Below are positions 32,610 through 63,720 of a stretch of DNA of 64,000 nucleotides, one piece after another (positions within the stretch are counted from its first letter, which is position 1; every line of letters starts with the position of its first letter). A program made the translations under genes and the position numbers. Source of the DNA: Pseudanabaena sp. PCC 7367 (lineage in GTDB: Bacteria > Cyanobacteriota > Cyanobacteriia > Pseudanabaenales > Pseudanabaenaceae); contig NC_019701.1 in the NCBI RefSeq assembly GCF_000317065.1, positions 2,137,001 through 2,201,000 of the forward strand, given 5' to 3'. The notes beneath the pieces are model-generated. The model made no database searches, was not told the DNA's origin, and saw only the letters and a list, made by a program, of their open reading frames with translations.

Positions 32610-33053
32610 TTACCACTTCTTATAAGGAAGAAACTTGCCAGTCATAATGATCTGGACTCGATCGCCTTTCGGGTCTTCAACTTTCTCAACTTCGATCGAA
32701 AAGTCGATCGCACTCATAATCCCATCGCCAAACTTCTCATGGACTACTGACTTCACTGGCGCACCATAAACTTGCATGATTTCGTAGAACCGATAAACAA
32801 GAGGATCGGTGGGAATTAGAGGATCGAGGCTACCTTTCATGGGCGGAATAGTCAATTCCTTTGCCATCTCTTCCGGCAAACCCAATGTTGTCACCAACTT
32901 CTTGGCTACATCCAGATCAGCGCTGGCTTGTCGAAAAATTACCGCTGCTACCCACACTTCATCAAATCCAACAGCAGCCTCTAGATCAGCATAGGTCATA
33001 CCCTTAGCATCTTTAGCAGCTAAAAGTTTTTCTGTAATCTCAGCGATCACCAT
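32610..33053 (-). CDS. cynS: Cyanase (cyanate hydratase)
   Basis: Catalyses bicarbonate-dependent decomposition of cyanate to carbon dioxide and ammonia (via carbamate), giving nitrogen and detoxifying cyanate. The 147-residue length is normal for the decamer-forming enzyme. An N-terminal helical domain (1-75) precedes the catalytic domain, where Arg88 and Glu91 ([12 protein letters not shown]) and Ser114 (GIMSAIDF) match the known active-site triad. AGGAG stands before the ATG. It lies 319 bp downstream of the ABC transporter ATPase, a spacer long enough for its own promoter. Confidence 0.97.
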
Positions 33054-33372
33054 AGGTTAAATTCTCCTCATTAAAAACTACTACTTCTACTAGTTCCGTT
33101 AAACAGACTAGCTGATTATTTACAACTTAAGTTAAAACAAAAGATAATCTTCACACCGCCAATTAGGTCAATATCGAGCCAATAGCTTAGTCGCAAAGCC
33201 CAACCCAAGAGGAATAAAGAATATGCACAGGCTAGCGGAATGAACCGTCAATCTACAACTTCCGATCACTTCTCAACAAGTCCATAGGAACAATAACCAA
33301 CAATAACCACAGTAATTAAGGGTAATTGATTATTTTAGATGCAGTGCTCGCTCTCCTGCTAGAGCCCTAAGC
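33054..33372. other. 319-bp spacer between the transporter ATPase and cyanase
   Basis: AT-rich spacer, no reading frame. I found no full GTAN8TAC site. The ribosome site AGGAG of cynS is at its left edge. It may hold a secondary promoter for cynS. Confidence 0.4.
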
Positions 33373-34263
33373 CTATTTACGCTTAGCCCGCTCTTCTTCA
33401 ACTGCCCTAGTCTCGCGGTATAGATGCGATTCCATCTCCGATTTAAGCGCATGATAATCGGGATGAACCTCAACTTCCTCACGCACCCGTGGCCGGGGAA
33501 AGGGAATTTCAAGAATCTCATCAATACGAGCCGCCGGCCCCCTGGTCATCATTACGATTTTATCGGAAAGCAATAGGGCTTCTTCGATACTGTGGGTAAT
33601 CATTACCACGGTTTTACGTTTTTGATCCCAAATCCGTTCCACTTCATCTTGCAAAAAGCCTCTAGTTAAGGCATCGAGCGCCCCAAATGGTTCGTCCATG
33701 AGCAGTATTTGCGGATCGATCGCCAGGGCTCTAGCAATCCCAACCCGTTGACGCATCCCACCGGATAATTCATGGGGATGTTTGCGTTCAGCACCAGCCA
33801 AGCCAACTAACTGAATAAACTCATGGGCGATCGACTTTTGCTTCAGCCTTCCCATTTCAGGAAAAACCGTTTCGATCGCAAAGCGAATGTTCTGCTCTAC
33901 GGTCATCCAGGGCATCAGGGCATAATTCTGGAAAACCATACCACGATCGGGGCCAGGGCCATCGATTGGTTTACCATTCATAAACACATCACCGCTGGTT
34001 TGCGAACTCAAGCCAGCAATAATATCAAGCAAGGTTGACTTGCCACAGCCCGAAGGCCCAATGATCGTGACAAAGGTATTATGTTCAATATCAATGTTTA
34101 TGTCTTCCAGGGCGGTAAAATCACTGGAGGCTTTACCCATGATTTTGTTAACTAATCCCTTCTTGCCAGGGAAAACCTTGGAAACATGCCGCAAGGAAAG
34201 TTGAACGTCCTTACGAACTTCGGTAACTGCACTAGTTGATTCCGGTGTGAGTGAGATGTTCAT
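33373..34263 (-). CDS. cynD: Cyanate/nitrate-type ABC transporter ATP-binding protein
   Basis: ATPase subunit energising uptake of cyanate (or nitrite/nitrate). In 296 residues it has Walker A GPSGCGKST, the signature LSGGMRQR, Walker B ILLMDEPFGALD and the switch histidine in MITHSIEEA. It is a single-domain ATPase like CynD/NrtD, without the NrtC-type fused binding domain. The gene starts 5 bp after the permease stop, so translation is coupled. Assignment to cyanate rests on the neighbouring cyanase; the sequence alone would allow nitrate or bicarbonate. Confidence 0.9.
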   Translation of the reverse strand: MNISLTPESTSAVTEVRKDVQLSLRHVSKVFPGKKGLVNKIMGKASSDFTALEDINIDIEHNTFVTIIGPSGCGKSTLLDIIAGLSSQTSGDVFMNGKPIDGPGPDRGMVFQNYALMPWMTVEQNIRFAIETVFPEMGRLKQKSIAHEFIQLVGLAGAERKHPHELSGGMRQRVGIARALAIDPQILLMDEPFGALDALTRGFLQDEVERIWDQKRKTVVMITHSIEEALLLSDKIVMMTRGPAARIDEILEIPFPRPRVREEVEVHPDYHALKSEMESHLYRETRAVEEERAKRK

Positions 34264-34268
34264 GATGC

Positions 34269-35126
34269 TTACCTCCCAAATGATACGAATCTTTGTAATA
34301 AGCCGAAGATGCGATCGAGTATGATGCCAACTAAGCCAATCACTACGATCGCAGTAATGATGCTGGTAATACTGAGGTTATTCCATTCATTCCAAACAAA
34401 GTAGCCCAGGCCAGTACCACCTACCAGGATTTCCGCGGCCACAATCACCAGCCAGGAAATGCTAATGCTGATGCGTAACCCAGATACAATGCTTGGCGCA
34501 GCAGCAGGTAGAATCACTTTAGTGATTTTGCGCCAGGGAGAAGCACCGAGCGTCCTAGCCACATTCAGATAATCTTGATCAACATTGTTTACGCCAAACT
34601 TAGTATTGATCAGGGTTGGCCAGATGCTAGTAATCGCAATTACAAAGATTGCGGTCATTTCTGAATCCTTAAGTATACCCAGGCCAATCGGCAACCAGGC
34701 CAAAGGTGAAACCGGCTTGAGCAATTGCACATAGGGATCGATCGCCTTGGAGGTAACTTCCGATAGTCCCACTAGGAAGCCCAATGGCACGGCGATCAAG
34801 GAACCCACCGTAAAACCGATCGCAACCCGGCGCAGGCTGACCAGCAAATGCCAGGCAATTCCTTTGTCATTGGGACCGTAATCATAAAATGGATCGGAAA
34901 TCCAGCCCCAGAAATCTTTGATCGTAAGACTGGCAGAGGGCATCAGGTCAGAAAACCAACCATTAATAGAACCAATCTCCCAAAAAGCAAGGAGAAAACC
35001 AAAAGAGCAGAGGAACAGGACAAAAGCCTGGAGATTCTGGCCAGGGATCAACCTGCCGATCGTCTTAAAGAAGCCAACAATCGGGTTACTGCCTTTTTTT
35101 CTGCGGACTTTTGCTTGCGAATGCAT
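34269..35126 (-). CDS. cynB: Cyanate/nitrate-type ABC transporter permease
   Basis: Integral membrane subunit of 285 residues in the NrtB/CynB/SsuC family. A cytoplasmic basic N-terminus and about six membrane helices are visible. The ATPase-coupling EAA-like loop ARTLGASPWRKITKVILPAA lies at about residues 193-212. It is 5 bp upstream of the ATPase gene and about 200 bp downstream of the binding-protein gene, in the standard cynA-B-D order. Confidence 0.9.
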   Translation of the reverse strand: MHSQAKVRRKKGSNPIVGFFKTIGRLIPGQNLQAFVLFLCSFGFLLAFWEIGSINGWFSDLMPSASLTIKDFWGWISDPFYDYGPNDKGIAWHLLVSLRRVAIGFTVGSLIAVPLGFLVGLSEVTSKAIDPYVQLLKPVSPLAWLPIGLGILKDSEMTAIFVIAITSIWPTLINTKFGVNNVDQDYLNVARTLGASPWRKITKVILPAAAPSIVSGLRISISISWLVIVAAEILVGGTGLGYFVWNEWNNLSITSIITAIVVIGLVGIILDRIFGLLQRFVSFGR

Positions 35127-35324
35127 GACGAATCTTAAGTAATCAATAGAACTGCTTGTAATGCGAGTTATTCAAATATTTAATTTAAAGCTAATTACAT
35201 TTAAAGCTAATTAGCCCATACCCAGCTTGCAGTTATTTAAATCCCAAGAGCTATTAGGAACTAAAAGCCACCACAGGCTGAGTAGGAATAAAAAGGAATA
35301 CCAAGGAGACGCTATACAGCAGCG

Positions 35325-36965
35325 TTATACCCCATATTCCTCAATTTGCTGTTGCACGTAGGCATCAGGGTCAGCAGGATCGAAGGTATCAAACTTCAAT
35401 GTCTCAGTACGGAACTCATCTTCGGGCGGAGTCTGCCCTACTTCCTTAGACAATTCCCTTGCCAGATCAGTAAGAAAGATATCCTTACCAATTTCATCAT
35501 ATTCTTCTTTAGTAGAAGCTTGATCGCTAGGCAGGAAGTTCCATCGCACCATCTGGCCAGAAATCCAATGGGCAAAGCTCTGCCAGGGATAGGGATCAAA
35601 GTCGATCCGATCGGGAATGTTCTGAGTATTACCGAGACCATCATCAAATTCCCCAGTTAGAACGGCTGCTACCACTTCCTCTGGTTGGTTCAAAAATGCC
35701 CGTTCTGAAATGGCGGTGGCGATCTCCCTGCGATTGGCCGGATCGCTGGCATAACCAGCCCCATCAATGATCGCCTTGTTCAGCGCTCGGAACGTATTGG
35801 GATTAGCATCAATCCATTCATCGCTGGCTGCAAACGCACAGCAGGGATGGCCTGGCCATAGATCCTTAGTCAGCAAGTGAATAAAGCCTGCATCTTCAAA
35901 CACAGCCCGCTGATTAAACGGATCGGGCATTAACATTGCATCAATGTCACCCACTGCCAACTTGGCTACGCTGTCTGGCGGTGGAACTGCCTCAATCTTG
36001 ACATCCAAGTCGGGGTCCAGACCACCAGTGGCCAGATAATAGCGCAGGAGCAGGTTATGCATTGAATAGGGGAACGGCACACCGATCGTGAATCCTTTGA
36101 AATCAGCCGGCCCATTAACCTTACCCTTGTGCAGGTTAGATACCGTAATCGCCTGACCATTGATATTTTCAATACTGGCCAGTTTTACGCCAAAGGTAGC
36201 CGAACCCAGACCCAGGGTCATGGCAATCGGCATTGGTGCCAGCATATGATAGGCATCCAGCTCACCAGCGATCGCTGAATCCCTCACCGCTGCCCAGCTA
36301 GGCATTTTTATCACACTTGCATCAAACCCATATTTCTTATAGAAGCCCAATGGTTCCGACATAATAATTGGTGTGGCACAGGTGATCGGGATAAAGCCAA
36401 TTTTTAGATTTGTTTTTTCGAGATCACTCGGTGGCGGCACATCATCCGGTGCATCTGCGGTTGGTGGTGGTGTATCTGCATTTTGTCCACAACTGGCCAG
36501 GGTAACTAGGGCAGCACCGATCGCCACGTTCCGCAAAAAGCGTCTTCGACTAGTCCCATTAATCCGCTTAGCATCACTGAAGAATTCCGCCGATCGATGC
36601 CCAAAGGCGGCTGAAAAAGCTTGATCCAAACCTCCGGCTAATCCGGCCAATTCCCGTGCCAGACGTTCGCGCTCTGGATTGGTGCGGCCGATTGTTTTGA
36701 AAAATAATTCTGTGCGCAGGTCTGCGGCGCTGATGGTCTGCGCCAAGGCCAGACTATCTTGCTTGTAAACCCGCATTTTAATCAAATCATCAATCATCTC
36801 AAGGGGATCTTTAGGCATTTCCTCTGCCATAAATTTCCAGTGATCTTGAGTCAAATGATATCCGCCACAGGTCAGACAGAGGATGTCAAGCTGACTTAGC
36901 TCGCCTTGCTGGGCATAGAGCTTATCCCACTTCTTTTGCTTGTCGTTATTAGCAATTAGTACCAT
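35325..36965 (-). CDS. cynA: CynA/NrtA-like substrate-binding lipoprotein with Cys-motif N-terminal extension (copy 1)
   Basis: The mature part (about residue 175 onward) is a CmpA/NrtA/CynA periplasmic binding protein. IGFIPITCATPIIMSEPLGF, the PMPIAMTLGLGS block and DLWPGHPCCAFAAS are family marks. Ahead of it lies a Tat-type lipoprotein signal (SRRRFLRNVAIGA ending LASC, about 138-160). Ahead of that is an unusual ~135-residue domain with CLTCGGYHLT near residue 30 and a helical middle. It is the gene closest to the permease. An NtcA-type site is centred about 60 bp upstream of the start. About 70% identical by eye to the upstream copy at 37467; the two may differ in substrate (cyanate versus nitrite or nitrate). 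Confidence 0.88.
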   Translation of the reverse strand: MVLIANNDKQKKWDKLYAQQGELSQLDILCLTCGGYHLTQDHWKFMAEEMPKDPLEMIDDLIKMRVYKQDSLALAQTISAADLRTELFFKTIGRTNPERERLARELAGLAGGLDQAFSAAFGHRSAEFFSDAKRINGTSRRRFLRNVAIGAALVTLASCGQNADTPPPTADAPDDVPPPSDLEKTNLKIGFIPITCATPIIMSEPLGFYKKYGFDASVIKMPSWAAVRDSAIAGELDAYHMLAPMPIAMTLGLGSATFGVKLASIENINGQAITVSNLHKGKVNGPADFKGFTIGVPFPYSMHNLLLRYYLATGGLDPDLDVKIEAVPPPDSVAKLAVGDIDAMLMPDPFNQRAVFEDAGFIHLLTKDLWPGHPCCAFAASDEWIDANPNTFRALNKAIIDGAGYASDPANRREIATAISERAFLNQPEEVVAAVLTGEFDDGLGNTQNIPDRIDFDPYPWQSFAHWISGQMVRWNFLPSDQASTKEEYDEIGKDIFLTDLARELSKEVGQTPPEDEFRTETLKFDTFDPADPDAYVQQQIEEYGV

Positions 36966-37466
36966 AGACCAGTTATATACACTTGTATCAATTAGAATGC
37001 TTGTTCTAGCAACTAACTGTATAGTTAGCTACAAATATTCCTTTCGGGTGAAATCTTTTCTAGCTTGGTTGGATGGCTAGGTGTGGTAGCGCAATTTAAA
37101 ACTTAATTCAAAATTAAGCTTCTGACTGTTTAGCCTAAACAAAACATGGCGATCGTCGCATAAGAATTAGTTAACTTGTTGCGATCCACTAAATTAAATC
37201 AGTCTAATTCAATCGGCAATAGTTTGAATATAGGATGATTCTTATTGATGAAAGTGCTTCCCAGACAGTTTTACACGAAATCGTATTGATGTATATATCG
37301 CAACACCAATTCACAATTATTTGATTTGGCTCAGATAAGCTCACCAGCTTTTTATCTGTCTAGTGAGTTACTATAGCTAATAGACCATAATCCCAAAACA
37401 TTCGCTTTGAGACGGTTTTGCTGGGTCGATCGCCTCCCATTACTCCGAATCGCCATGCTTAAATGC
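36966..37466. other. 501-bp spacer carrying the copy-1 promoter
   Basis: Lies between the two binding-protein genes. Its left end holds the NtcA-type promoter of copy 1. The remainder shows no reading frame or terminator that I can recognise, so partial read-through from copy 2 is possible. Confidence 0.5.
36989..37032 (-). promoter_or_regulatory. NtcA-activated promoter of cynA copy 1
   Basis: A perfect NtcA consensus GTAN8TAC stands at 37019-37032. Sixteen nucleotides downstream on the minus strand is AAGCATTCTAATTG (36989-37002), whose CATTCT lies about 29 bp from the centre of the NtcA site. This is the spacing of class II NtcA promoters, in which the activator replaces the -35 box. The start codon is about 55 bp from the NtcA site. 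Confidence 0.8.
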
Positions 37467-39089
37467 CTAAACACCAAATTGCTCGATTTGTTGCTGTAAA
37501 TATTCTTCTGGATTATCAGGATCAAGCGTGTCGAACTTCAGTTGCTCGACCCTGGCTAGTTCCTGTGGTGCTTCTATGCCTAGTTCTTCGGCCAATTCCC
37601 TTGCCAAGTCGGTCAGGAAAATTTGTTCGCCAATTTCGTCATAATTCGCATCTTCCGCTGGCAAATAATCCCACCGCACCATCTGGGTTACAATCCAATC
37701 GGCAAAGCTCTGCCAGGGATAGGGATCGAAATTAATTCGATCGGGCACATCCATCATATTCCCCAGCCCATCATCAAACTTGCCAGTCAAGACTGCATCC
37801 AGCACTTCCACTGGTTGGTTGAGATATTCACGTGGCGCGATCGCCTTGGCAATTTCAGCGCGATTGGCCGGGTCATTGGCATAGGTAGCCCCATCAATGA
37901 TTGCTTTATTGATTGCTCGGAAGGTATTCGGATTCGTATCGATCCATTGTTGCGAAGCCACAAACGAACAGCAGGGATGTCCTGGCCACAAATCTTTGGT
38001 GAGCAAATGAATAAAACCAATCTTTTCAAAGACCACCCGCTGCACCAGATTATCCGGCAATAGGAAAGCGTCTAGTTGCCCCGAAGCCATCTTCGCCACT
38101 GCATCTGGTGGTGGCAGGTTCTGCAAGTTGCAGTCTTGATCTGGATCAAGGCCACCGGAAGCCAGGTAATAGCGCAGGATTAAATTATGATTGGAATAGT
38201 CATAGGGAAGGCCGATCGTCATGCCTTTGAAGTCTGCTGGGCCATTGATTTTGCCTGCATGCTGCATCGCCACCGCGATTCCCTGGCCGTTGTTATTTTC
38301 AATACTAGCCAGCTTGACGGCGAACGCGGTCGAACCTAGTCCCAGAGTCATAGAAATTGGCATTGGAGCCAGCATATGATAGGCATCTAGCTCTCCAGCG
38401 ATCGCTGAATCCCTCACCACTGACCAGCTTGGCATTTTTACCACTTCCACATTCAAGCCATGCTTTTCATAGAAGCCCAACGGCTCCGACATAATGATTG
38501 GCGTGGCGCAGGTGATCGGCAGGAAGCCTACTCTCAGATTCGTTTTTTCAAGGGAACTGGTATCGATCGGCTCGCTGGTTTCCGTGGGCGCAGGAGTCTG
38601 TTCCTGGACACCACAACTAGCCAGGCTAACCAGAGCCGCACCGATCGCCACATTCCGCAAAAAACGCCGCCGACTAAAATTGCTATAGCGCTTTGCATCG
38701 GTGAAGAATTCGCCTGCCCTGGGACCAAAGGCAGCAGCAAAGGCTTGATCCAGGCCACCAGCCATCTTGATCAAGTCATTCACTAATCGTTCGCGTTTGC
38801 GATCGCCCCGACCAGCAATTTTCAAAAAGAGGGACTTGCGCAAATCCGCTTGGGTCAGGCTATCAGCAACATTAAGCGCTTCTGACTGATAGAGCCGCAT
38901 CTTAATCAAATCATCGATCAACTCTTCCGGCTGTTGCGGCATTTCCGACAGAAACCGCTGGTGATCGGCAGTCATGTGATAACCACCACAAATCATGCAT
39001 TTGATCTTGAGTTGGTCTAGCTCACCGCGATCGCTAGCCAGATTTTGCCATTTACTTGAAGATAGGGGAGAACCGAGAGATAGAACCAT
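37467..39089 (-). CDS. cynA: CynA/NrtA-like substrate-binding lipoprotein with Cys-motif N-terminal extension (copy 2)
   Basis: A 540-residue paralogue of the protein at 35325 with the same three-part build. The N-terminal extension has CMICGGYHMT near residue 31. A Tat-type lipoprotein signal follows (SRRRFLRNVAIGA ending LASC, about 138-160), then the CmpA/NrtA/CynA binding domain (VGFLPITCATPIIMSEPLGF, DLWPGHPCCSFVAS). Differences cluster in the pocket-lining loops, for example GIAVAMQHAGK here against AITVSNLHKGK in copy 1. It has its own upstream NtcA-type promoter and is the first gene of the minus-strand series. Two binding proteins may share the single permease/ATPase to widen the substrate range; that is inference. 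Confidence 0.87.
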   Translation of the reverse strand: MVLSLGSPLSSSKWQNLASDRGELDQLKIKCMICGGYHMTADHQRFLSEMPQQPEELIDDLIKMRLYQSEALNVADSLTQADLRKSLFLKIAGRGDRKRERLVNDLIKMAGGLDQAFAAAFGPRAGEFFTDAKRYSNFSRRRFLRNVAIGAALVSLASCGVQEQTPAPTETSEPIDTSSLEKTNLRVGFLPITCATPIIMSEPLGFYEKHGLNVEVVKMPSWSVVRDSAIAGELDAYHMLAPMPISMTLGLGSTAFAVKLASIENNNGQGIAVAMQHAGKINGPADFKGMTIGLPYDYSNHNLILRYYLASGGLDPDQDCNLQNLPPPDAVAKMASGQLDAFLLPDNLVQRVVFEKIGFIHLLTKDLWPGHPCCSFVASQQWIDTNPNTFRAINKAIIDGATYANDPANRAEIAKAIAPREYLNQPVEVLDAVLTGKFDDGLGNMMDVPDRINFDPYPWQSFADWIVTQMVRWDYLPAEDANYDEIGEQIFLTDLARELAEELGIEAPQELARVEQLKFDTLDPDNPEEYLQQQIEQFGV

Positions 39090-44797: not shown

Positions 44798-45433
44798 ATG
44801 AAACCCTTTCCATTATTCAGTTCTATTCTGGCGATCAGTTTGTCGATTGCCTCCCCTACAGCCGTATTTGCCCATGTTGGTCACGGCGATGAGTTTCAAG
44901 CAACAGGTGGTATCAATCGAGTCGAAGTAAATGCTGAGACCGACTCGTTCCTGGGCATCGAAGTTAAGCCAATTGAGCCAGCTACTGATGGCAGCAGTGC
45001 GGTATTCATCCCTGCTACGGCCATTGTAGATGTCGATGGTCAGCAGTTCGTATTTGTCGAATATGAAAATTTCTATGAGCCGGTAGAAATCTCCACAGGA
45101 GAGACACAGGGAGAACTAATTGAAGTTTTACAAGAATTATCAGTAGGAGAGCGGCTGGTAACCCAGGGTAGCCTCTCACTCTATGCGGAATCACGCAAAA
45201 CCCAAACCACTGATTCTGTAGTTGCAACAGATGGAGAGGAAATTATGAATGATTCAGTTCCTACACCAGTTGAAACTGAAATTACAGAGAATGATATAAC
45301 CCAAGATGGACTGGGACGAGGTTTGATTGCGGTTGGTGTTGGGGGCGCTGTATTACTAATTGGCGCAGGTGCGATCGTTGTGTTCACGTCTGGGAAGAAA
45401 AACAATCCCGCGCGTAATAACAGGGAGCTTTGA
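44798..45433 (+). CDS. Short HlyD/CusB-like periplasmic adaptor with C-terminal membrane helix
   Basis: A 211-residue protein with a signal peptide (1-26, ending VFAHVGHGDEF), GAGGAG ribosome site and ATG at 44798. Residues 45-130 match the beta-barrel/membrane-proximal part of RND adaptors: LGIEVKPIEP, AVFIPATAIVDVDGQQFVFV and SVGERLVTQGSL. The alpha-hairpin and lipoyl domains of full-length adaptors (usually about 400 residues) are absent. A transmembrane helix near 170-192 follows an acidic linker. Either a natural short form or a deletion derivative; there is no frameshift at the start. It lies 5 bp before the pump gene, so the two are co-translated. Confidence 0.75.
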   Translation: MKPFPLFSSILAISLSIASPTAVFAHVGHGDEFQATGGINRVEVNAETDSFLGIEVKPIEPATDGSSAVFIPATAIVDVDGQQFVFVEYENFYEPVEISTGETQGELIEVLQELSVGERLVTQGSLSLYAESRKTQTTDSVVATDGEEIMNDSVPTPVETEITENDITQDGLGRGLIAVGVGGAVLLIGAGAIVVFTSGKKNNPARNNREL

Positions 45434-45438
45434 TTTGA

Positions 45439-46074
45439 ATGTTTAACTCAATTCTCAATCAAACCCTTAAAAATTCAATTGCCCAGCGGTGGTTTATTGT
45501 TGTTTGTGCGATTGTGGTGGCGATCTGGGGCATAATCAGCGTTACCCAGATGCCCCTGGATGTGTTCCCTGAATTTGCGCCACCTCAAATGGACATCCAT
45601 ACTGAAGCAACTGGACTGGCACCGGAAGAAGTGGAAACTCAGATTACGGTACCAATTGAAAGCGTGGTGAATGGTTTGCCAGGAGTAACCAAGGTGCGAT
45701 CGTCCTCTCAGGTAGGACTATCGATGGTGCAGGTAGTCTTCGACCAGGATGCCGATATTTATCAAGCTCGCCAGGCAGTGACCGAAAGGCTCCAACAAGT
45801 TGCCAACCAACTGCCTGACGGAGTACACCCGCCGGAAATTTCGCCCCTGTTATCGCCACTGGGCACAATTTTGCAATATGCCTTTACTGTAAATGGCCAG
45901 GGACAAACCTCCATGATGGAGCTGCGTAGCCTGGTTGAAGTCACGCTCAGTAATCAGATCCTTTCCGTGCCAGGGGTCTCACAAATCACCATTTATGGCG
46001 GTGATGAACGCCAGGAACAGGTATTAATCGACCCAACCAAACTAGTGGATTGTCAGCTTTCAATTTGTGGGTAA
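45439..46074 (+). pseudogene. Heavy-metal RND efflux pump, 5' part (split by IS630-family element)
   Basis: First ~201 codons of a CusA/CzcA/NrsA-type proton-driven heavy-metal efflux pump. The first transmembrane helix (RWFIVVCAIVVAIWGIISV) is followed by the hallmark DVFPEFAPPQ and the porter-domain start (EVETQITVPIESVVNGLPGV). At 46043-46044 an IS630-family element interrupts it; the last ~10 codons to the stop at 46074 are IS sequence. Removing 46045-47263 joins this part in frame to 47264-49822, restoring K-L-E-A-L-N across the junction and a 1054-residue protein. The pump is therefore inactive in this sequence but only one excision away from intact. Confidence 0.92.
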
Positions 46075-46784
46075 AGTCGCTTAAGGCGAATACGAGCATC
46101 TGCAGTTGTGAATTGCCAATCTACCGACTTCTGCAAATGATTACGCTCAATGAACCAAGCTGATGTTTCTTGTTCAAGAGTTTCTCGATCTGGGATCCGT
46201 CGATCCAGACATTGTCGGGTTAGTGCAGACAGCTCGATTTCGGCAATATTTAGCCAACTTCCATGTTTGGGCGTATGGTGAATTTCTAGCCGTTCGACCA
46301 ACCGACGCGCAGTGGACGGAGCAAAGGCCTGATAGAGCGAGGCAAGTTTGTGAATGTTCAAATTGTCACATACCAAAATGACAGTCTCGCAATCGGCGTA
46401 GTCTTGTTCAAGTAAGCGTTGAATTTCGATCGCCCAATCAACTGAGGTTCTGCGTTCACTCACAACTGCTTTACGCCAACCGGCCAAAGGTTCTGTAAAC
46501 AAGAAAATATTAGCGGTGCCATTGCGCTCATATTCATAATCTACCAACTCTGGTTGTCCTGATTTAGCCGGCAATGGAATGCGTGTTTGTTTAACCAATT
46601 GCACCGGTTTTTCATCCATGCAAATTACCGGATGCTTAGAATCATAGGGTTGGTGATAAATCTCTAGTACATCTTCCATATGAGCAACAAAATCGGCATT
46701 TTGCTCAGGTGGAATCACATACTGTTGACGTAGATGTGGTTTCAGTTCGTTTTTTTCAGCACTTGTCGCACGGTCTCGTGACAA
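46053..46784 (-). CDS. IS630-family transposase, DDE catalytic part (orfB)
   Basis: DDE-type catalytic domain: the first Asp in CMDEKPVQLVKQTR, the second in LVCDNLNIHK and the Glu in HGSWLNIAEIELS. This is the IS630 pattern. It has no plausible start of its own; the frame enters from orfA by a -1 shift at the A7 run (46750-46756 on the complementary strand). The intact DDE triad suggests the element is still active. Confidence 0.9.
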   Translation of the reverse strand: MSRDRATSAEKNELKPHLRQQYVIPPEQNADFVAHMEDVLEIYHQPYDSKHPVICMDEKPVQLVKQTRIPLPAKSGQPELVDYEYERNGTANIFLFTEPLAGWRKAVVSERRTSVDWAIEIQRLLEQDYADCETVILVCDNLNIHKLASLYQAFAPSTARRLVERLEIHHTPKHGSWLNIAEIELSALTRQCLDRRIPDRETLEQETSAWFIERNHLQKSVDWQFTTADARIRLKRLYPQIES

Positions 46785-47185
46785 ATAGCTGGTACAATTT
46801 CTAACTCCACCGCTTTATCAGCAAGCAATCGCAATGTCCAGCGAGCATGACCAGCAGGTGGTTCGCTACAACGTAAGGCTATTAGCTTTGCCTCCGACTC
46901 TCCATCACATACGTGTGGTCGTGGCGCACTTTGGCGAGGTTTGCGTGCCAAGGCCGACTCTAAACCTCCTTCAATCAATCGTTGACGCAGGTTGGCTACT
47001 GTATTGCGATGGCAACTAAAGGTGGCGGCGGCTTCCGCATCTGTCCAGTTCTGGCCATTTATATCGATATTTAACAGAATGTTGGCATGTTTGATTTTAT
47101 AGGCGGCGGCCTTACCAGTAGACACAAGATTTTGCAGCTCTTCGCGCTCTTCCTTGCTCAAACGGACGATATAGCGTTTAGGCAT
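46742..47185 (-). CDS. IS630-family transposase, N-terminal DNA-binding part (orfA)
   Basis: Residues from MPKRYIVRLSKEEREELQNL include two helix-turn-helix segments (WTDAEAAATFSCHRNTVANL and GHARWTLRLLADKAVE) that bind the terminal repeats. The frame ends VLKKTN just past an A7 run, where a -1 slip continues into orfB as KNELKPHLRQQY. An alternative ATG at 47206 is in frame. Confidence 0.88.
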   Translation of the reverse strand: MPKRYIVRLSKEEREELQNLVSTGKAAAYKIKHANILLNIDINGQNWTDAEAAATFSCHRNTVANLRQRLIEGGLESALARKPRQSAPRPHVCDGESEAKLIALRCSEPPAGHARWTLRLLADKAVELEIVPAICHETVRQVLKKTN

Positions 47186-47263
47186 AATATACTGCTCGGA
47201 TAACATAGGTATAGTTTATCCATCTTTCCCTTAACTCACAAACCCAAGATTGACAGAACACTA

Positions 47264-49822
47264 GAAGCCCTGAATGTTTCGCTGACCGAAGTCACCAATG
47301 CCACCAGAGAAGCAAATGCCAATGCGCCCGGTGGCTTTTTGGTAGGTGGCGGACAGGAACTGTTAGTACGTGGTATCGGGCAAGTACAATCGATCGCTGA
47401 TCTGCAACAGTCCGTCGTTAAAGTCCAGAACGGTGAGCCTATCTTACTCAAAGATGTAGCAGAAGTAAGAACTGGGACAGCTTTGAAACGTGGTGATGCC
47501 AGCTTTAATGGCCAGCCTGCGGTGGTGCTCATGGTGAATAAACAGCCCGATGTCGATACACCCACCGTCACCAAAGCAGTAGAGGCGGTGATGCAATCTT
47601 TGCCGACTACCTTTCCCGCTGATGTGCAAGTAGCGCGTACCTTTCGCCAGGCTAATTTTATTGATTCTGCCATTCACAATGTCAGTTTTTCGCTGCTCCA
47701 AGGCATCATCATTGTGTCGGTGATCATGCTGTTGTTTTTGATGAACTGGCGCACAGCGATGATTACCCTGAGTGCAATTCCCATGTCTTTGCTAGTCGGT
47801 TTGATGCTGATGAAAGCGTTTGGTCTGGGAATCAATACCATGACCCTGGGCGGCTTGGTGGTAGCGATCGGCTCAGTGGTAGATGACTCGATCGTGGATA
47901 TGGAAAACTGCTATCGGGGACTGCGCACTAACCAGGCACAGGACAACCCAAAACACCCTTTTCAGGTGGTGTATGACACCTCCATTGAAGTGCGACTGGC
48001 AGTAATTTTCTCTACGGTGATTATCATTGTAGTGTTTGCGCCAATCTTTACTTTAACTGGCGTAGAAGGGCGGATTTTTGCACCAATGGGGGTAGCCTAT
48101 TTGCTTTCGATCGTGGCTTCTACCCTGGTAGCCATGACCCTTTCGCCAGCTCTGTGTGCAATTCTGCTGGCAAATCAATCTTTGCCTCAGCAAGGAACTT
48201 TCATTGCCCGCTTAAGCGAACGGTTATATCGTCCATTACTAAATCGATCGCTGCGATCACCCCAATTGATTCTAGGATTTGCGCTGGCCGCATTGGTTGC
48301 TACCTTGGCAATTGTTCCTTCCTTGGGACGTGTATTCCTACCTGAATTCCAGGAAAAATCGATGGTCAATTCAATGGTCTTGTTCCCAGGCGTTTCCCTG
48401 GACATGACCAATCAGGCAGGTAAGGCATTGGCTAAATCACTCCAGGATAACCCGCTGTATGAGTGGGTACAGGTGCGAGCAGGAAGAACCCCTGGTGATG
48501 CTGATGGTGCAGGTGTAAATATGGCACACGTGGATATAGAACTCAGTGATACGGCGCTAAAAGATCGAGAAGCCAGTATTAAACAACTACGTGAGTCATT
48601 TTTGGAATTGCCTGGTGTGGCACCCAACGTTGGTGGTTTTATTTCTCACCGTATGGACGAAGTATTATCTGGGGTAAGAAGTGCGATCGCCGTGAAAATC
48701 TTTGGTTCCGATCTAGCCGAGTTGCGCCGAGTTGGTAAGCAGATCCGCGATGTGATTGCACCAATTGAAGGGGTCGTGGATCTCCAACTTGAGCCCCAAT
48801 TGCCGATCCGTCAGGTGCAAATTCAGTACGATCGAATCGCTGCTGCTGAATTTGGTTTAAGTATGGCCGCAATTTCGGATGTGGTCGAAACAGCACTCAA
48901 TGGTCGGATTGTTTCGCAGGTGCCAGAGAATCAACAACTGATTAATATTGCGATCGGATTGGAAGAGTCAGCCCGTAATAACTTAGATGCGATTCGCGCA
49001 GTTCCAATCTCTACACCCACAGGCGAAATTATTTCACTGGGCACGGTCGCAAACGTAGACTATGGCATGGGTGCTAATGTCGTGAATAGGGAAGACGTAT
49101 CGCGCCTAATTGTGGTGTCTGCCAATGTGGCTGAGCGTGACTTAGGCAGCGTGGTAGGCGACATCCAGGCACAAATTAAACAAAATGTGCAGTTGCCCCA
49201 GGGATATTTCATTCAGTATGGTGGACAGTTTGAAGCGGAGCAAAAAGCCACTAACAATTTACTGGTGTTTAGCATTCTGGCAGCAATCGTCATTGCGGTA
49301 TTAATGTTTTTCTCGGTGAAATCTCTGCCAGCAACGATCGCAATCATGCTCAATCTGCCATTAGCACTGGTGGGCGGTATTGTCTCAATCTTACTAACTG
49401 GCGGTGTTATCTCGATCGCCTCTTTGATTGGCTTTATTACCTTGTTTGGGGTGGCGGTTCGTAATGGCTTATTACTGGTGGACAACTACAACAAAAAGTT
49501 TGCCCAGGGAATGCCACTTAGAAAGGTAATTATTAAGGGTTCGTTGGAACGAGTAAACGCCATCTTAATGACGGCTGTTACCTCTGCGTTGGGGATGTTG
49601 CCGTTAGCGATCGCCAGCGGTGCTGGGAATGAAATCCTGCAACCGTTAGCGATTGTGGTTCTGGGTGGTTTGTTTACCTCCACTGCATTAACGCTGTTAG
49701 TTATTCCTGCTCTCTATGCCAGATTTGGCAAGTGGCTAATTCCCAAGCCAACTACTACTAGCATTGAGAAACAATCTTATAAAGATGAATCTGCGAAGGT
49801 AGCGATTGGAGTAAAGCTCTAG
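47264..49822 (+). pseudogene. Heavy-metal RND efflux pump, 3' part (split by IS630-family element)
   Basis: Continuation of the pump from EALNVSLTEVTNATREANAN. It includes GGGQELLVRGIGQV and transmembrane helices 2-6 with the proton-relay region GGLVVAIGSVVDDSIVDMEN. The second porter loop (VNREDVSRLIVV) and the C-terminal helices through ASLIGFITLFGVAVRNGLLL follow. The stop at 49822 is followed by no other pump subunit, so an outer-membrane factor must come from elsewhere. Free-standing translation of this half would give a channel lacking helix 1. Apart from the IS the sequence has no stop or frameshift, so the insertion is recent. Confidence 0.92.
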
Positions 49823-50959: not shown

Positions 50960-53026
50960 TTAAGTAAGCTTGGCGCGACGTAGCATCACCGCATTGATTG
51001 CCACAATCACAGTTGAAAAACTCATCAGCAAAGCACCAACTGCTGGTGATAAAACTATCCCCCATTTAGATAGCACTCCAGCAGCAAGAGGGATTGCCAA
51101 CACGTTATAGCCAGTTGCCCAGAAAAGGTTTTGAAGCATTTTGCGATAGGTCTTTTTGGCTAAATTTAAGGCTTTTACTGCATCCAGGGGCTCGTCATTA
51201 ATTAAAACCAGATCGGCCGATTCGATCGCCACATTAGTACCAGCACCGATCGCTAACCCCATATTTGCCTCCAATAGGGCAGCCGCGTCATTAATGCCAT
51301 CACCCACAAATGCGGTGGGAGCCTCTTTTCGTAATGCTTTGATCCGGTTCACTTTATCCTCTGGCAATACCCGCGCATAGTAGCGATCGATGCCCAAATC
51401 ATCGGCTACACTACGGGCTACGGCTTCGGCATCACCGGTAATCATCACTGCCTTCACATCCATTTGATGCAGGCGATCGATGGTAGCGCGGGCTCTTTCT
51501 CTAACCTGATCAGCCATCGAAATAACTGCGATCGCTTGGTCTTTGTCCATTAGCACTACGGCACTTTCGCCGCGATCGTCAGCTTTGGCTAATCCTGCTT
51601 GCAAGCTATCTGGTAATTTCAAGTTTTGTTCCTTTACCCATTCAGGGCGACCCAGACGATAGGTTTGGCCATCAACTTGCCCTTCTACTCCCTGGCCAGT
51701 GACAGTCTGAAAGTCTTTCATTTTAGGCAAATCAAGCTCATACTGATTCGCAGCTTCTACAATCGCCTTAGCTAGGGGGTGCTCAGAAGCGGTTTCTAGG
51801 GCTGCGGCAACGGCTAGTGCTTGTTTTTGCTGTATTTTGGCAACTGTAATATTCTGCACACCAAACTTACCCTTAGTAAGAGTTCCAGTCTTATCAAAAG
51901 CCATAATTTTAATATCTTTGGCTCGTTCTAGGGCATCCCGATTCCGCACTAGAATCCCATTTTTAGCGGCTAGTCCAGTAGAGTTAGCAATTACCAGAGG
52001 GATAGCCAGACCCAAAGCATGGGGACAGGTAATCACCAGCACCGTCACCGCCCGATTGATCGCAAATACTAAATCATTGATAGACAGCCAGACCACGAAA
52101 GTAAGCGAGCCCGAAGCGATCGCCACCAAGGTGAGCCAATAGGCTACTTTGTCTGCAAGTGCCTGGTAACGACTGCGAGAGGATTGGGCTTCTTCCACCA
52201 GCCGCATGATTTGACTGATCGCCGTATCATTTCCAATTCGGTTTACTTTAACCTGCACCGAGCCTTCAGTATTGACCGAGCCTGCTACAACCTCATCTCC
52301 CACCTTTTTAGAAACTGGCTTTGATTCCCCGGTCAAAAAAGATTCATTAACATTGGTGTTACCTTCGATCACCTCACCATCATTAGGAATCTGTTCACCA
52401 GGACGGATTAAGATCACATCCTCAACCTGAATCTGATCGACAGGTATATCTTGAATCTCTCCATCTCGGATTAAGTGGGCTTCGTTGGGAACCAGACTTG
52501 ATAATTCTTGCAGTGCTTGACTTGCCCCCTGTACTGAGGCCATTTCTACCCAGTGCCCCAACAGCATAATATCGATCAGGGTGGCCAACTCCCAGTAGAA
52601 GGGTTTGCCTTCCAATCCTAAAGACACGGCCAGGCTATAGATAAACGCCACTGAGATCGCCAGGGCAATCAGTGTCATCATGCCGATCTTGCTCTGAAAT
52701 TCATGCCAAGCCCCTTGGATAAACACCCAGCCACCATAGAAGTAGATGACAATGCCAAAAAGTGGGCTAATCCAGACGGAGCCGGGGAATGAAACAGCTT
52801 GATAGCTCAACCAATCCTGAAGCTGTTGGGAGAAGTAAAGAATCGGCAGAGTTAGAACTAGCGATCCAAAAAAACGTTGCTTAAACATCTCAGGACTGTG
52901 ACCTGCATGTTTATCATGACCACCATGATCATGGGAATCATGATTTTGATGATGCGCATGGCTATGGTGTTGGCGATCGCTGCCATGATCATGCTTCATC
53001 TGGTTGTGGGAATCTGATTCCGACAT
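50960..53026 (-). CDS. CopB-type (P1B-3) heavy-metal P-type ATPase with His-rich N-terminus
   Basis: A 688-residue ATP-driven metal exporter. The N-terminus (1-48) is a His/Asp-rich metal-binding tail. The membrane helix 6 motif is CPH (Cys334-Pro-His336), which marks the P1B-3/CopB group associated with Cu2+ or Ag+ export rather than the CPC of CopA. The phosphorylation site is Asp378 (FDKTGTLTKG). FLTGESKPVSKK (actuator), ASEHPLAKAI (nucleotide domain) and VGDGINDAAAL (hinge) are all intact. The ATG at 53026 has GAGAGG before it; the frame opens from a TTG 12 bp upstream. It lies 30 bp after the multicopper oxidase stop, in the same operon. Confidence 0.95.
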   Translation of the reverse strand: MSESDSHNQMKHDHGSDRQHHSHAHHQNHDSHDHGGHDKHAGHSPEMFKQRFFGSLVLTLPILYFSQQLQDWLSYQAVSFPGSVWISPLFGIVIYFYGGWVFIQGAWHEFQSKIGMMTLIALAISVAFIYSLAVSLGLEGKPFYWELATLIDIMLLGHWVEMASVQGASQALQELSSLVPNEAHLIRDGEIQDIPVDQIQVEDVILIRPGEQIPNDGEVIEGNTNVNESFLTGESKPVSKKVGDEVVAGSVNTEGSVQVKVNRIGNDTAISQIMRLVEEAQSSRSRYQALADKVAYWLTLVAIASGSLTFVVWLSINDLVFAINRAVTVLVITCPHALGLAIPLVIANSTGLAAKNGILVRNRDALERAKDIKIMAFDKTGTLTKGKFGVQNITVAKIQQKQALAVAAALETASEHPLAKAIVEAANQYELDLPKMKDFQTVTGQGVEGQVDGQTYRLGRPEWVKEQNLKLPDSLQAGLAKADDRGESAVVLMDKDQAIAVISMADQVRERARATIDRLHQMDVKAVMITGDAEAVARSVADDLGIDRYYARVLPEDKVNRIKALRKEAPTAFVGDGINDAAALLEANMGLAIGAGTNVAIESADLVLINDEPLDAVKALNLAKKTYRKMLQNLFWATGYNVLAIPLAAGVLSKWGIVLSPAVGALLMSFSTVIVAINAVMLRRAKLT

Positions 53027-53055
53027 AGTACCTCTCAAAATTTAGTTATGCATGA

Positions 53056-54513
53056 TTAGGCTTGAATCTCTAAATTGCCCATCATGCCCATATCTTCGTG
53101 GTCAAGAATGTGGCAGTGATATACGGTCTTGCCAGCAAAATCACGGAACGGAATACGGATCCGAACTGTTTCACCAGCCCGCACCAAAACAGTATCTCGC
53201 CAAGCCTGATATGGCTCTGGTACGTCATTGCGGCTAATCACCTGAAAGGGATTAACGTGCAAATGGAATGGGTGATCCATCACGCCGTTATTAATAAGTT
53301 CCCAATCTTCAACCGTGCCAAGTTTCACCCTGGTATCAATCCGATCGGGTTCGTAGGGTTGACCATTGACTAGAAAAACCATACCCATGCCTGGAGCCAT
53401 GCCATGATTGAGGACAAATTGCCTGGTTGTGATTGGTTCGGGCAAGTTATTAACCGTAATCAATTGCTTGGGTAGAGACAGCTTAGGCACAGAGCCTTGA
53501 CAGGTTAAGGTAGCTAAAACTCGATTATTATTGCTAGTGAATCCACCCATCATATTGCCGCGTCCCATCATCCCCATGCCACCTCGGTCATAGGGCAAAT
53601 TAAGCAGTTCATAGGTTTTAGGCTCACGCTCCCCTCTAATCAGCACTTCAGCCCTCTCACCTGGAGCCATTAACAACTCCGAAATTTCTACTGGCTCAGC
53701 TATGCCGCCGCCATCGGTAGCGATCAGATACATGGGATGATTATTAGTGAGCGCAAGGCGATAAAAACGTGATGTGGAAGCATTGAGCAATCGCAATCGC
53801 AGAAAGCGATCGTTGGGGATGCTTATCTCTGGTGCAATTTGGCCATTAAGCGCAATAACATTACCTTCCCTGCCAAACGATCGCGCCATAGGATTTAATG
53901 TCTGCATTTGACCATTACGATCCAGATCAAAATCCTGTAAGACAAAAAACTCTTCTTTGGCTGTTTGCACTTCGGGAATGCGATCTAAATCACCACGGAT
54001 CACAAACAACCCGGCTAACCCACCAAATACCTGCTCAGCTACATAACCATGACGATGGGGGTGATACCAGGAAAGCCCGGCAGGGTGGTCTTTAGCGATC
54101 GTAAATTCATAGGTAAAGCGATCGCCTGGGGCAATATCAAGAAAGATATTATCACCACTACCTGTGGGCGGGATATGGGGGCCGTGGTAATGCAAATTAG
54201 TTGGCTGAGACAGATTATTAGTAAAGTTAATCCGTACTGTGTCACCAGCATTAACTTCAAGGCGTGGCCCCGGTATTGTGCCGTTATAGCTAAGCAATGA
54301 TGCAGTGTTTCCACCTAGTTGCACCGATCGATAGCTAGCTTCTAGCTCAACCTCTAATAATCCGTTAGCACTCTTGTATAGCTGGGGTGAAGTAATTTCC
54401 GCATCACGGGCAAGAGTTGAGCGATTTTTACTGATTAACCAATTTGAAGCTAAAGCTAGCCCTGCACCCGCAGCCCCCAGGACAATAAATTGACGGCGCT
54501 TTAATTTGTTCAT
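53056..54513 (-). CDS. Multicopper oxidase (CueO/laccase-like, Tat-exported)
   Basis: 485 residues with a Tat signal (KRRQFIVLGAAGAG). Copper-site motifs are in order: HYHGPHIPP, SWYHPHRHGYVAEQ, HPFHLHVNPFQV and the C-terminal HCHILDHEDMGMMG. The last has the His-Cys-His and Met ligands of the type 1/type 3 sites. A Met/Gly-rich loop (GMGMMGRGNMMGGF, about 315-330) resembles the labile-copper loop of CueO. Oxidising Cu(I) to Cu(II) in the periplasm would feed the CPH-type ATPase next to it, which favours Cu(II). It is the first gene of the operon, behind two MerR-type promoters. Confidence 0.95.
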   Translation of the reverse strand: MNKLKRRQFIVLGAAGAGLALASNWLISKNRSTLARDAEITSPQLYKSANGLLEVELEASYRSVQLGGNTASLLSYNGTIPGPRLEVNAGDTVRINFTNNLSQPTNLHYHGPHIPPTGSGDNIFLDIAPGDRFTYEFTIAKDHPAGLSWYHPHRHGYVAEQVFGGLAGLFVIRGDLDRIPEVQTAKEEFFVLQDFDLDRNGQMQTLNPMARSFGREGNVIALNGQIAPEISIPNDRFLRLRLLNASTSRFYRLALTNNHPMYLIATDGGGIAEPVEISELLMAPGERAEVLIRGEREPKTYELLNLPYDRGGMGMMGRGNMMGGFTSNNNRVLATLTCQGSVPKLSLPKQLITVNNLPEPITTRQFVLNHGMAPGMGMVFLVNGQPYEPDRIDTRVKLGTVEDWELINNGVMDHPFHLHVNPFQVISRNDVPEPYQAWRDTVLVRAGETVRIRIPFRDFAGKTVYHCHILDHEDMGMMGNLEIQA

Positions 54514-55154: not shown

Positions 55155-55439
55155 AACTCTAGGCGATTTGTTCGCTGATACACAATCCTGGTGTCAAGTT
55201 TGATGTTTATCTGGGAATGTCCTGATTATGCATACATTGCCCTGCAATCTGTATGTCATAAATTGTTCATACTACAAGTTTAAAAAATGTCTTTTTACTG
55301 TTGGCTAAATCGAGTGCTTAGACTCATTGCCGTTGCGATCGTCGGGTTCATAGTAATTAACTGCTTCTTGACATAATTCTATTAATCATAGATTTTTGCA
55401 AGAATTTCGGCAAAATCTTCATGCTAGAGGAATTGCAAG

Positions 55440-55853
55440 GTGAAAGAAATAAAGGCGATCATCCAAGCTTCCAAACTAGATGATGTCAAAACCGCTCTGA
55501 TCGATGTTGGTATTCATGGTATGACTGCATCAGACGTTCAGGGTTTTGGTCACCAGAAGGGACATATAAAGCCTAATCCTGGCTCCGATTACGATCGGAT
55601 TGAATCAACTTTAGCCTTGATGGTGCTTGGTGGCATGTTTGTTGGCCCTAGCTTCACCAAAAAATATGCAGTTCAATTGTTGCCCAAAACCCAGATCGAA
55701 GTAGTAGTTGAAGATGACCAGGTTGATGAAGCGGTAAAAAAAATTCTTGCCGTTGCCAACACTGGTGAGATTGGCGATGGCAAGATATTTATCACTAATG
55801 TCAATGAGACAATTCGCTTGCGTACTGGCGAAAGAGGCGATGAAGCCCTTTAA
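55440..55853 (+). CDS. Atypical PII signal-transduction protein with T-loop insertion
   Basis: 137 residues against the usual 112. The PII fold is clear: MKEIKAIIQASKLDDVKTAL, Gln39 in GFGHQKG, TGEIGDGKIFI (PII signature 2) and Arg126/Arg128 in IRLRTGER. So the residues that bind ATP/ADP and 2-oxoglutarate are kept, and Lys83 (LLPK) takes the place of Lys58. Within the T-loop, after GSDY, about 25 extra residues (about 52-76) include the hydrophobic run LALMVLGGMFVG. The usual YRGSEY block is altered to NPGSDY. GTG start with AGAGG 9 nt before it. The insertion would change the partner-binding surface, perhaps directing it to a membrane target. It is just outside the right island repeat. Confidence 0.9.
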   Translation: MKEIKAIIQASKLDDVKTALIDVGIHGMTASDVQGFGHQKGHIKPNPGSDYDRIESTLALMVLGGMFVGPSFTKKYAVQLLPKTQIEVVVEDDQVDEAVKKILAVANTGEIGDGKIFITNVNETIRLRTGERGDEAL

Positions 55854-61497: not shown

Positions 61498-63720
61498 ATG
61501 CAAAAACTTCAATATGTAGCTCATACTCCTAATAAGTTAGGTGAATGGCATAGTTTACAAGAACACTTATCCGATGTTGCGATTAAGGCTCAGGGTTATG
61601 CTGCAAAAATAGGTTGTGATGAATTAGGTTACTATGCAGGACTATGGCATGACTTAGGTAAATACCATCCTAAGTTTCAACAGTATTTAGAGTGTTGCCA
61701 TTTAGCTACTGAAAATGGACGGAGTAGCTCATGCAAAAAATTTCCCCATGCTATTTATGGAGCTTGCCTGGCCAGAGAGTATCTACAGCCATTGGCACCA
61801 ATTATCTGGGGACATCATGCCGGATTACCTGATAAAGACAAGTTAACAAATGATTTAAGTAAGGAAAATCATGCTGTTCAAAATGAATATCGAGCAGTTC
61901 TGCAGCATGTGCCGGAAACTTTACTGCAAGTACGATCGATCCAAAAATCGAAGCAAGCAATGCAAGGCTTGGCCAAAGATAGTACCGAGATGCTAATCCG
62001 CATGCTTTTCTCTTGCCTGGTTGATGCTGATTACCTGGATACTGAAGAACATTTTGATCCTGATGCTCCAAAATTGAGAGGTGGTTACAAAACGGTAAAT
62101 CTACTCTGGAAAATATTTCAAGCGGATCAACAGCAGCTTTTCGATCGAGTAAAAGGCATAGATAGTAAAGTCAATCAGATTCGCTCAGAAGTTTATCTTG
62201 CCTGTGTTGAGGCGGCAGCACAAATGCCTGGTGTTTTCCGGCTGGCAGTGCCGACCGGTGGTGGCAAAACTCGCAGTGGTCTGGCGTTTGCTCTCAAACA
62301 TGCCATGATCCACAACTTAGATCGTGTGATTGTGGCAGTTCCCTACACCAGTATCATTGAACAAACAGTTAATGTATATAGAAATATTTTAGGTGAGGCA
62401 GATGTTTTAGAGCATCATAGTGCGGCAAAAGAACCTGATGATGAAGATGCCAGACAAAGCTATGCCAAGGCGCGTCTTGCCACCCAAAATTGGGATGCAT
62501 CGTTAGTTGTGACTACAACAGTTCAACTTTTTGAAAGCCTTTTTGCCAATCGTCCCAGTCGCTGTCGCAAGTTGCATAACCTAGTGGGCAGTGTGATTGT
62601 GCTAGATGAAGTACAAACCCTACCGATGTTCCTATTAACGCCAATTTTAAGTGGATTAAAGGAACTAGTCGATCGCTATCGGGTCACAGTAGTGCTCTGT
62701 ACCGCTACCCAACCGGCACTGGAAGGCGAAAGCCGTTATCTTGAAGGTTTCACCGCAGGATCGGTAAGAGATATTGTTTCATCTGCACTGGCTAAACAGC
62801 ATTTTGCCGGACTGGCTCGGGTTAACTACGAAATCAAGGAACAAACCTGGTCATGGGAGCAACTAGTTGCAGATATTAAGGAACACAATCACGATCGCGC
62901 CTTGATTATTCTTAATACCCGTAAAGATGCGCTGGCGGTATTGGATACATTACAGAACGATGATGAGATTGATGCTGATTCACTTCTACATCTTTCAACT
63001 CTGCTCTGTGGTGAACATCGCCGCCAGGTATTAAACCAAGTCAGAAACAGACTCGATCGCCACCAACCTTGCCTATTGGTTTCAACCCAGGTGGTGGAAG
63101 CAGGGGTGGATTTAGATTTCCCGGCGGTTTATCGGGCGATCGGCCCTCTCGATCGGATTGTGCAGGCAGCGGGTCGGTGCAATCGGGAAGGCAAAATGCC
63201 AGAAAAGGGAAGAGTTGTAGTTTTTGAGCCGGAGCAGGGTAGTAAACCGAAGGGCGATTATGAAACTGCGGCCAAAAGAGCTGAAGGTATATTAAAAAGT
63301 CCTGAGCTTGATTTGCACAATCCAGATACTTTTGAAACTTACTTTAAAGTGCTTTATAAGGACGTTAAGCTAGACCAACTTGATATTCAAAAGAAGCGAA
63401 CCAATTTCAATTACCCAGAAGTTGCTAAGAATTTCAAATTTATTAAGGATGATACAACACCTGTGGTGATTCAATTTGACGATCGGGTGCGCAAGCATTT
63501 AAAACAGATTCAGCGACGAGACCTGAATTCAGGTGACTATCGAAAACTCCAACCTTATTTAGTGAATCTCAGACAAAATGATTTCAAAGGAACGGAAGCA
63601 TTGCGCGAGGAGATCGCCCCTGGTTTATGGGTTTGGGAACGCCTCAGTTATGACGAACTTAAGGGAATCAAAATTGGCGATCGATCGATCGATTTTGATC
63701 CAGCGGACTTAGTGCAATGA
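61498..63720 (+). CDS. cas3: CRISPR-associated helicase/nuclease Cas3 (HD-DExH)
   Basis: The effector nuclease of type I CRISPR immunity: recruited by Cascade, it unwinds and degrades target DNA. In 740 residues there is an N-terminal HD nuclease domain (HSLQEHL at 18-24, His51-Asp52 in LWHDLGKYH, then HAIYG and WGHHAG). A superfamily 2 helicase follows: Walker A PTGGGKTRSG near 251, the Walker B variant DEVQ near 370, TATQP, and motif VI QAAGRCNREG. All key residues are present. The single-protein HD-plus-helicase form, with cas5 128 bp downstream, points to subtype I-C. Confidence 0.95.
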   Translation: MQKLQYVAHTPNKLGEWHSLQEHLSDVAIKAQGYAAKIGCDELGYYAGLWHDLGKYHPKFQQYLECCHLATENGRSSSCKKFPHAIYGACLAREYLQPLAPIIWGHHAGLPDKDKLTNDLSKENHAVQNEYRAVLQHVPETLLQVRSIQKSKQAMQGLAKDSTEMLIRMLFSCLVDADYLDTEEHFDPDAPKLRGGYKTVNLLWKIFQADQQQLFDRVKGIDSKVNQIRSEVYLACVEAAAQMPGVFRLAVPTGGGKTRSGLAFALKHAMIHNLDRVIVAVPYTSIIEQTVNVYRNILGEADVLEHHSAAKEPDDEDARQSYAKARLATQNWDASLVVTTTVQLFESLFANRPSRCRKLHNLVGSVIVLDEVQTLPMFLLTPILSGLKELVDRYRVTVVLCTATQPALEGESRYLEGFTAGSVRDIVSSALAKQHFAGLARVNYEIKEQTWSWEQLVADIKEHNHDRALIILNTRKDALAVLDTLQNDDEIDADSLLHLSTLLCGEHRRQVLNQVRNRLDRHQPCLLVSTQVVEAGVDLDFPAVYRAIGPLDRIVQAAGRCNREGKMPEKGRVVVFEPEQGSKPKGDYETAAKRAEGILKSPELDLHNPDTFETYFKVLYKDVKLDQLDIQKKRTNFNYPEVAKNFKFIKDDTTPVVIQFDDRVRKHLKQIQRRDLNSGDYRKLQPYLVNLRQNDFKGTEALREEIAPGLWVWERLSYDELKGIKIGDRSIDFDPADLVQ

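Follow-up and report, generated by a model that had tools for sequence, protein, structure and literature searches.

The window analyzed here, a 64,000-nucleotide stretch of the Pseudanabaena sp. PCC 7367 genome, codes on its + strand for a PII-family protein of 137 amino acids (55440–55853; GTG start, stop TAA at 55851–55853) whose T-loop carries a 25-residue insert with a markedly hydrophobic core. The T-loop is the element with which PIIs choose their partners, and its length is almost fixed, being canonical in 131 of the 139 PIIs that we compared. As the best, if still tentative, explanation we propose that this is a diverged second PII with normal effector sensing, whose T-loop has been rebuilt for docking to a non-standard partner via its hydrophobic tip. 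If functional, the protein would illustrate how extensively a PII loop can be altered and might point to partners of a new class; if it has no function, it indicates what the loop can accommodate after release from the partner constraint.

A PII Protein with an Extended T-Loop

The earlier note on this DNA, made from the bare sequence, had recognized a PII protein with a ~25-residue hydrophobic T-loop insertion, and both elements of that proposal are borne out. The reading frame is open over all 137 codons with no stops, and its product matches the Pfam P-II model with 99.3 bits (cut-off 25), spanning residues 1–131. The signature of the PII (GlnB/GlnK) superfamily, TGxIGDGK, is present as TGEIGDGKIFITNV, along with the equivalents of Arg101 and Arg103 (R126/R128). 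Alignment with the PIIs in the PDB falls into two blocks, with residues 1–51 of the query corresponding to canonical residues 1–51 and residues 75–136 to canonical residues 50–111; therefore, the extra 25 residues, DRIESTLALMVLGGMFVGPSFTKKY, fall at about 52–76, within the T-loop, and constitute a 75-nt in-frame segment on the + strand (55593–55667). In canonical numbering, this places the insert at the loop tip or close to it, with edges that are ambiguous owing to a tyrosine at each end (Tyr51 and Tyr76). Thus, in place of the canonical GlnB/GlnK frame of 112 residues with a YRGxEY T-loop, the query displays 137 residues, with NPGSDY and the 25-residue insert. The GC content of the insert is 0.43 as compared to 0.44 in its flanks, and no direct repeats of the kind left as a footprint by mobile elements were found at its edges. 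Because the genome is assembled in two contigs (4.56 and 0.33 Mb) and is 100% complete, an artefact of draft assembly is unlikely to lie behind the insert.

The hydrophobic clustering in the insert is real and above chance. Its best 12-residue window, LALMVLGGMFVG (residues 58–69; 55611–55646, + strand), has a Kyte–Doolittle hydropathy of 2.25, as against at most 0.59 in canonical T-loops. When the residues of the insert are shuffled, only 0.66% of the permutations reach this value; among open stretches of 25 codons drawn from the six frames of the window, 4.3% do so, and among 2,276 stretches from seven window proteins taken as soluble, none. A membrane span comprises about 20 residues with a mean hydropathy above about 1.6. 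In the query, the hydrophobic run is 12 residues long, or about 17 counting its polar ends, and the best 19-residue mean is 1.42.

An AlphaFold2 model built on a 57-sequence alignment has a confident core (pLDDT of at least 90 for 76 residues), and a Foldseek search with it places only PIIs at the top (E 6.8e-14 to 2xbp). Residues 40–75, which cover the T-loop and the insert, have a pLDDT below 50 and are modelled without secondary structure. Structure prediction, which had been suggested as a check, hence bears out the PII fold of the core and yields no structure for the inserted loop. As T-loops are often disordered when unbound, and as the prediction could draw on no homologues of the insert, such an unstructured loop in the model neither supports docking nor excludes it. 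On the grounds of length, hydropathy and the model taken together, a transmembrane helix is rejected, and the membrane-embedding T-loop envisaged at the outset is not supported: a 12-residue run, a 19-residue mean below 1.6 and the lack of a predicted helix all go against it.

Conservation of the Effector Core and Remodelling of the T-Loop

The divergence of the query is unevenly distributed. It keeps 28 of the 39 columns that are conserved in at least 95% of the aligned PIIs, namely 23 of 27 outside the T-loop and 5 of 12 within it, and retains all 19 invariant columns of the 57-sequence alignment; identity to other PIIs across the core is about 50–66%. The equivalents of Thr29, Gly37, Gln39, Gly41, Lys58, Gly87, Asp88, Gly89, Lys90, Arg101 and Arg103 are conserved, the last six of them in the effector-site region GEIGDGKIFITNVNETIRLR (residues 109–128; 55764–55823, + strand). 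Gln39, the ligand that the protein contributes to the Mg ion, and the 2-oxoglutarate-binding Lys58 (PMC3198391) are found as Q39 and K83. The claim that every effector-binding residue is intact accordingly holds for Gln39, Lys83 (equivalent to Lys58) and Arg126/128 (equivalent to Arg101/103), all of them invariant across the 57-sequence alignment, but not for Arg38, which lies next to the effector site, is conserved in 98% of PIIs and is a histidine in the query.

The changes in the T-loop reach far outside the insert. The part corresponding to the canonical loop, GFG-H-QKGHIKPNPGSDY (residues 35–51; 55542–55592, + strand), shows, in addition to Arg38->His, the substitutions Thr43->Ile, Glu44->Lys, Tyr46->Asn, Arg47->Pro and Glu50->Asp, with Ser49 and Tyr51 being kept. 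The best PDB match of the query by both sequence and fold is the cyanobacterial PII (GlnB; Synechococcus elongatus 2xbp, 2xzw, 2xg8), with which it shares the fold, Thr29, Gln39, Lys58, GDGK, Arg101/103, Ser49 and Tyr51. It differs from this protein in the 25-residue insert, in the alteration of Arg38, Thr43, Glu44, Tyr46, Arg47 and Glu50, and in being a second copy in its genome that stands alone.

Phyletic Distribution of the Insert

Among 139 distinct PII sequences gathered from fetched loci for a comparison of length, 131 have the canonical frame of 112 residues, 7 have a T-loop longer by about 6 residues (one of these counted from an incomplete start), and 1 has the extension of 25 residues. 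A search for homologues, likewise proposed earlier, thus recovers PIIs with a longer T-loop, but only those with 6 extra residues and none with the same insertion. The insert is found neither elsewhere in its own genome, searched as DNA, nor in the 38 genomes searched from its order, in protein searches of 390 cyanobacterial genomes (160 genera), or in a phylum sample of 386 genomes, these collections including no further species of the same genus. It is also absent from the best 80 of 424 relatives in a seeded search of an 84,980-species collection, which requires an exact 8-residue match, and from plasmids, IMG/VR and the PDB. Moreover, we ran the DNA pattern QKG-N{192,222}-GDGK, which admits any sequence between intact QKG and GDGK motifs, across the 390 cyanobacteria: it matched the window gene, the 20 other matches fetched were not PIIs, and match rates were similar to those of a reversed-pattern control. 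Descriptions of such a long hydrophobic PII T-loop were not found in those parts of the literature covered by our search. The insert is therefore known from a single genome only, and the contention that no standard PII has it stands across the genomes, plasmids, IMG/VR and PDB entries searched.

Genomic Context

Three PII-type genes are present in the genome, namely a canonical GlnB (L001), the window PII and a gene (L003) that is SbtB-like as judged by eye from its sequence. The window PII gene (about C2:2192440) is alone on the + strand between two genes on the − strand. Upstream of it, on the − strand, lie genes for a CueO-like multicopper oxidase (53056–54513) at about 0.9 kb, a copper P-type ATPase (50960–53038) and a DUF411 protein; an acyl-CoA dehydrogenase-like gene on the − strand lies downstream. 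Farther upstream, at about 5.6 kb, is a CusA/CzcA-type RND gene (45439–49822) that is split by an IS630-like element with transposase ORFs at 46053–46784 and 46742–47206. CTAG occurs at either edge of this interruption, and the adjoining periplasmic adaptor gene (44798–45433) aligns with its family models in their C-terminal part alone. A cyanate cluster (32610–39089) coding for a cyanase, the ATPase and permease of an ABC transporter, and a pair of similar NMT1-type binding proteins is found 16–22 kb from the PII gene; a GTA-N8-TAC site (37019–37032) stands directly upstream of one of the binding-protein genes.

The gene had been described as standing next to a metal island and 16 kb from an NtcA-controlled ABC transporter. 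Copper genes are indeed nearby, but a shared operon is contradicted by the opposite strands and the split RND gene; likewise, the cyanate cluster is at the distance given, but NtcA-type GTA-N8-TAC sites occur in the window only at chance frequency (8 vs. 5.9 expected). A scan of the window found neither such a site at the PII gene nor a promoter-like site on its strand. The copper genes and the cyanate cluster are not co-operonic with the PII gene, and as it is alone on its strand, with the cyanate cluster distant and no GTA-N8-TAC site at hand, the neighborhood names no partner. The partner of the query is not encoded next door. We further observed an inverted repeat, GTATG-N12-CATAC (55251–55272), that precedes the PII start by about 168 bases and could be a regulator site, and a gene for a Cas3-type helicase/nuclease (61498–63720) close to the end of the window.

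Evolutionary Affinities

In a tree of the query and other PIIs built on 96 core columns, in which PII-NG sequences were not included and 44 of the 80 inner branches are open, the query has no supported home, and its branch is long, at 0.78 changes per column. A constraint uniting it with cyanobacterial GlnB is not rejected (p-AU 0.70), and over the 96 core columns its identity to one GlnB (L135) is 66%. Neither is a clade with those second PIIs of other cyanobacteria whose genes adjoin one for an APC-type permease rejected (p-AU 0.83), and these provide its best full-span cross-species tblastn matches at 43–51% identity. The APC-permease-linked PIIs themselves (L005, L007, L124, L125, L126, L128) form a tight clade with support of 100/100 without the query and have a T-loop with 6 extra residues.

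Possible Functions of the Extended T-Loop

The retained residues make it most likely that the query still folds into a PII core and remains able to bind ATP/ADP and 2-oxoglutarate. Its T-loop would have been rebuilt for another partner, given that the near-invariant partner-facing residues are mostly gone and a hydrophobic-tipped extension lies close to the tip of the loop. As the likeliest mode of action, this extended tip would dock in a groove of hydrophobic character, or in a cytoplasmic vestibule, on a single dedicated partner. The insert would be under selection. A parallel is offered by GlnK–AmtB, where 2-oxoglutarate moves the loop (PMC3198391) and the T-loop docks in the channel (PMC6243067); by analogy, 2-oxoglutarate at the loop base might move the extended tip in or out. 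The AmtB-blocking GlnK (2nuu, 2ns1) resembles the query in having its effector site for 2-oxoglutarate at the base of an extended T-loop, which in the query would be the partner contact. It differs in two respects: the Arg47 with which GlnK enters and blocks the AmtB channel (PMC6243067) is Pro47 in the query, and the linkage of GlnK to amt is not seen, the two adjacent ammonium transporter genes of this genome (L181, L182; G000:C2:2874912–2877903) being far from the PII gene. This rebuilt-loop reading is favored by the retention of the core over that of the T-loop (23/27 vs. 5/12) and of all 19 invariant columns, by the confident core of the model and its match to solved PIIs, by the open frame with an insert matching its flanks in GC, by the rarity of such hydrophobic clustering by chance, and by the canonical GlnB (L001) and SbtB-like protein (L003), which cover the standard roles. 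Against it are the lack of a second species with the insert, the loop pLDDT below 50, the Arg38->His change and the lack of an operon partner.

That partner-facing residues are gone is as compatible with drift as with adaptation, and the drift of a redundant copy is a serious rival, though one that we rather doubt. It would hold that a neutral or decaying PII, freed from partner constraint, acquired an in-frame insertion where its fold tolerates one best, with the hydrophobicity having no function. That the insert is a singleton, that constraint on the T-loop has been lost more broadly than at the insert, and that the branch is long all speak for such decay, as do the lack of an operon partner, the negative outcome of the promoter scan on its strand and the altered Arg38. 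Conversely, the core is well kept, free of stops and intact at GDGK, Arg101/103, Lys58 and Gln39, and only about 4% of the open in-frame DNA of the window is equally hydrophobic. We regard as improbable a T-loop that enters the membrane, at the bilayer or its surface, or the pore or vestibule of a transporter, with gating that depends on 2-oxoglutarate and ATP and makes no use of Arg47. Were it true, it would represent a novel mode of PII action upon membrane proteins. The hydrophobicity is far beyond that of any canonical T-loop, and there is precedent both in the blocking of AmtB by the GlnK T-loop and in the PII-like SbtB, for which a solved structure in complex with its transporter is reported (PMC8352866). 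As the query would be on this reading, the SbtB/PII-like regulators of SbtA are PII-type proteins acting on a transporter; they are, however, a subfamily other than that of the query, whose genome has its own SbtB-like gene. Against this reading, the 12-residue core is too short and too weakly hydrophobic for a span, no helix is predicted, Arg47 is replaced by proline, and the only adjacent transporters are the copper P-type ATPase and the broken RND gene.

Two further readings start from known PII subgroups. Very little credence can be given to a metal-linked protein of the PII-NG kind that controls the neighboring copper and RND efflux genes. PII-NG genes are found within czcABC operons of proteobacteria (Sant'Anna et al. 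2009, as cited in PMC7726332), and the query shares with them a position near heavy-metal efflux genes, with the multicopper oxidase and the CusA-type gene close by. Against this, the query shares no operon with the pump, from which it is separated by copper genes that run in the other direction; the pump gene itself is broken, and the query keeps the general PII effector residues. Plasmid PIIs were also considered as metal-linked forms; the ones inspected are not linked to metal genes. In a separate plasmid search with a PII-NG-like sequence, on which no claim here is based, the hit inspected adjoins glnA. It is similarly very unlikely that the query is a derived member of the APC-permease-linked PIIs, even though these provide its best tblastn matches and, like it, are cyanobacterial second PIIs, with a common IIQ-SKL start and a lengthened, partly hydrophobic T-loop. 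A joint clade is not rejected, but the same is true of a grouping with cyanobacterial GlnB, and the APC-linked clade is fully supported without the query. The loops also do not align, the APC-linked PIIs having 6 extra residues with PLAFLGL and an adjacent permease, and the query 25 extra residues with neither the motif nor the permease; a search of the query genome for the L005 permease, run without a positive control, gave nothing at E 1e-6. The rebuilt-loop reading remains the one that we favor. As for the APC-permease-linked PIIs themselves, an RPLAFLGL-like T-loop segment is conserved among them, two such PIIs are found in tandem in L007, and they are possibly a subgroup dedicated to a permease.
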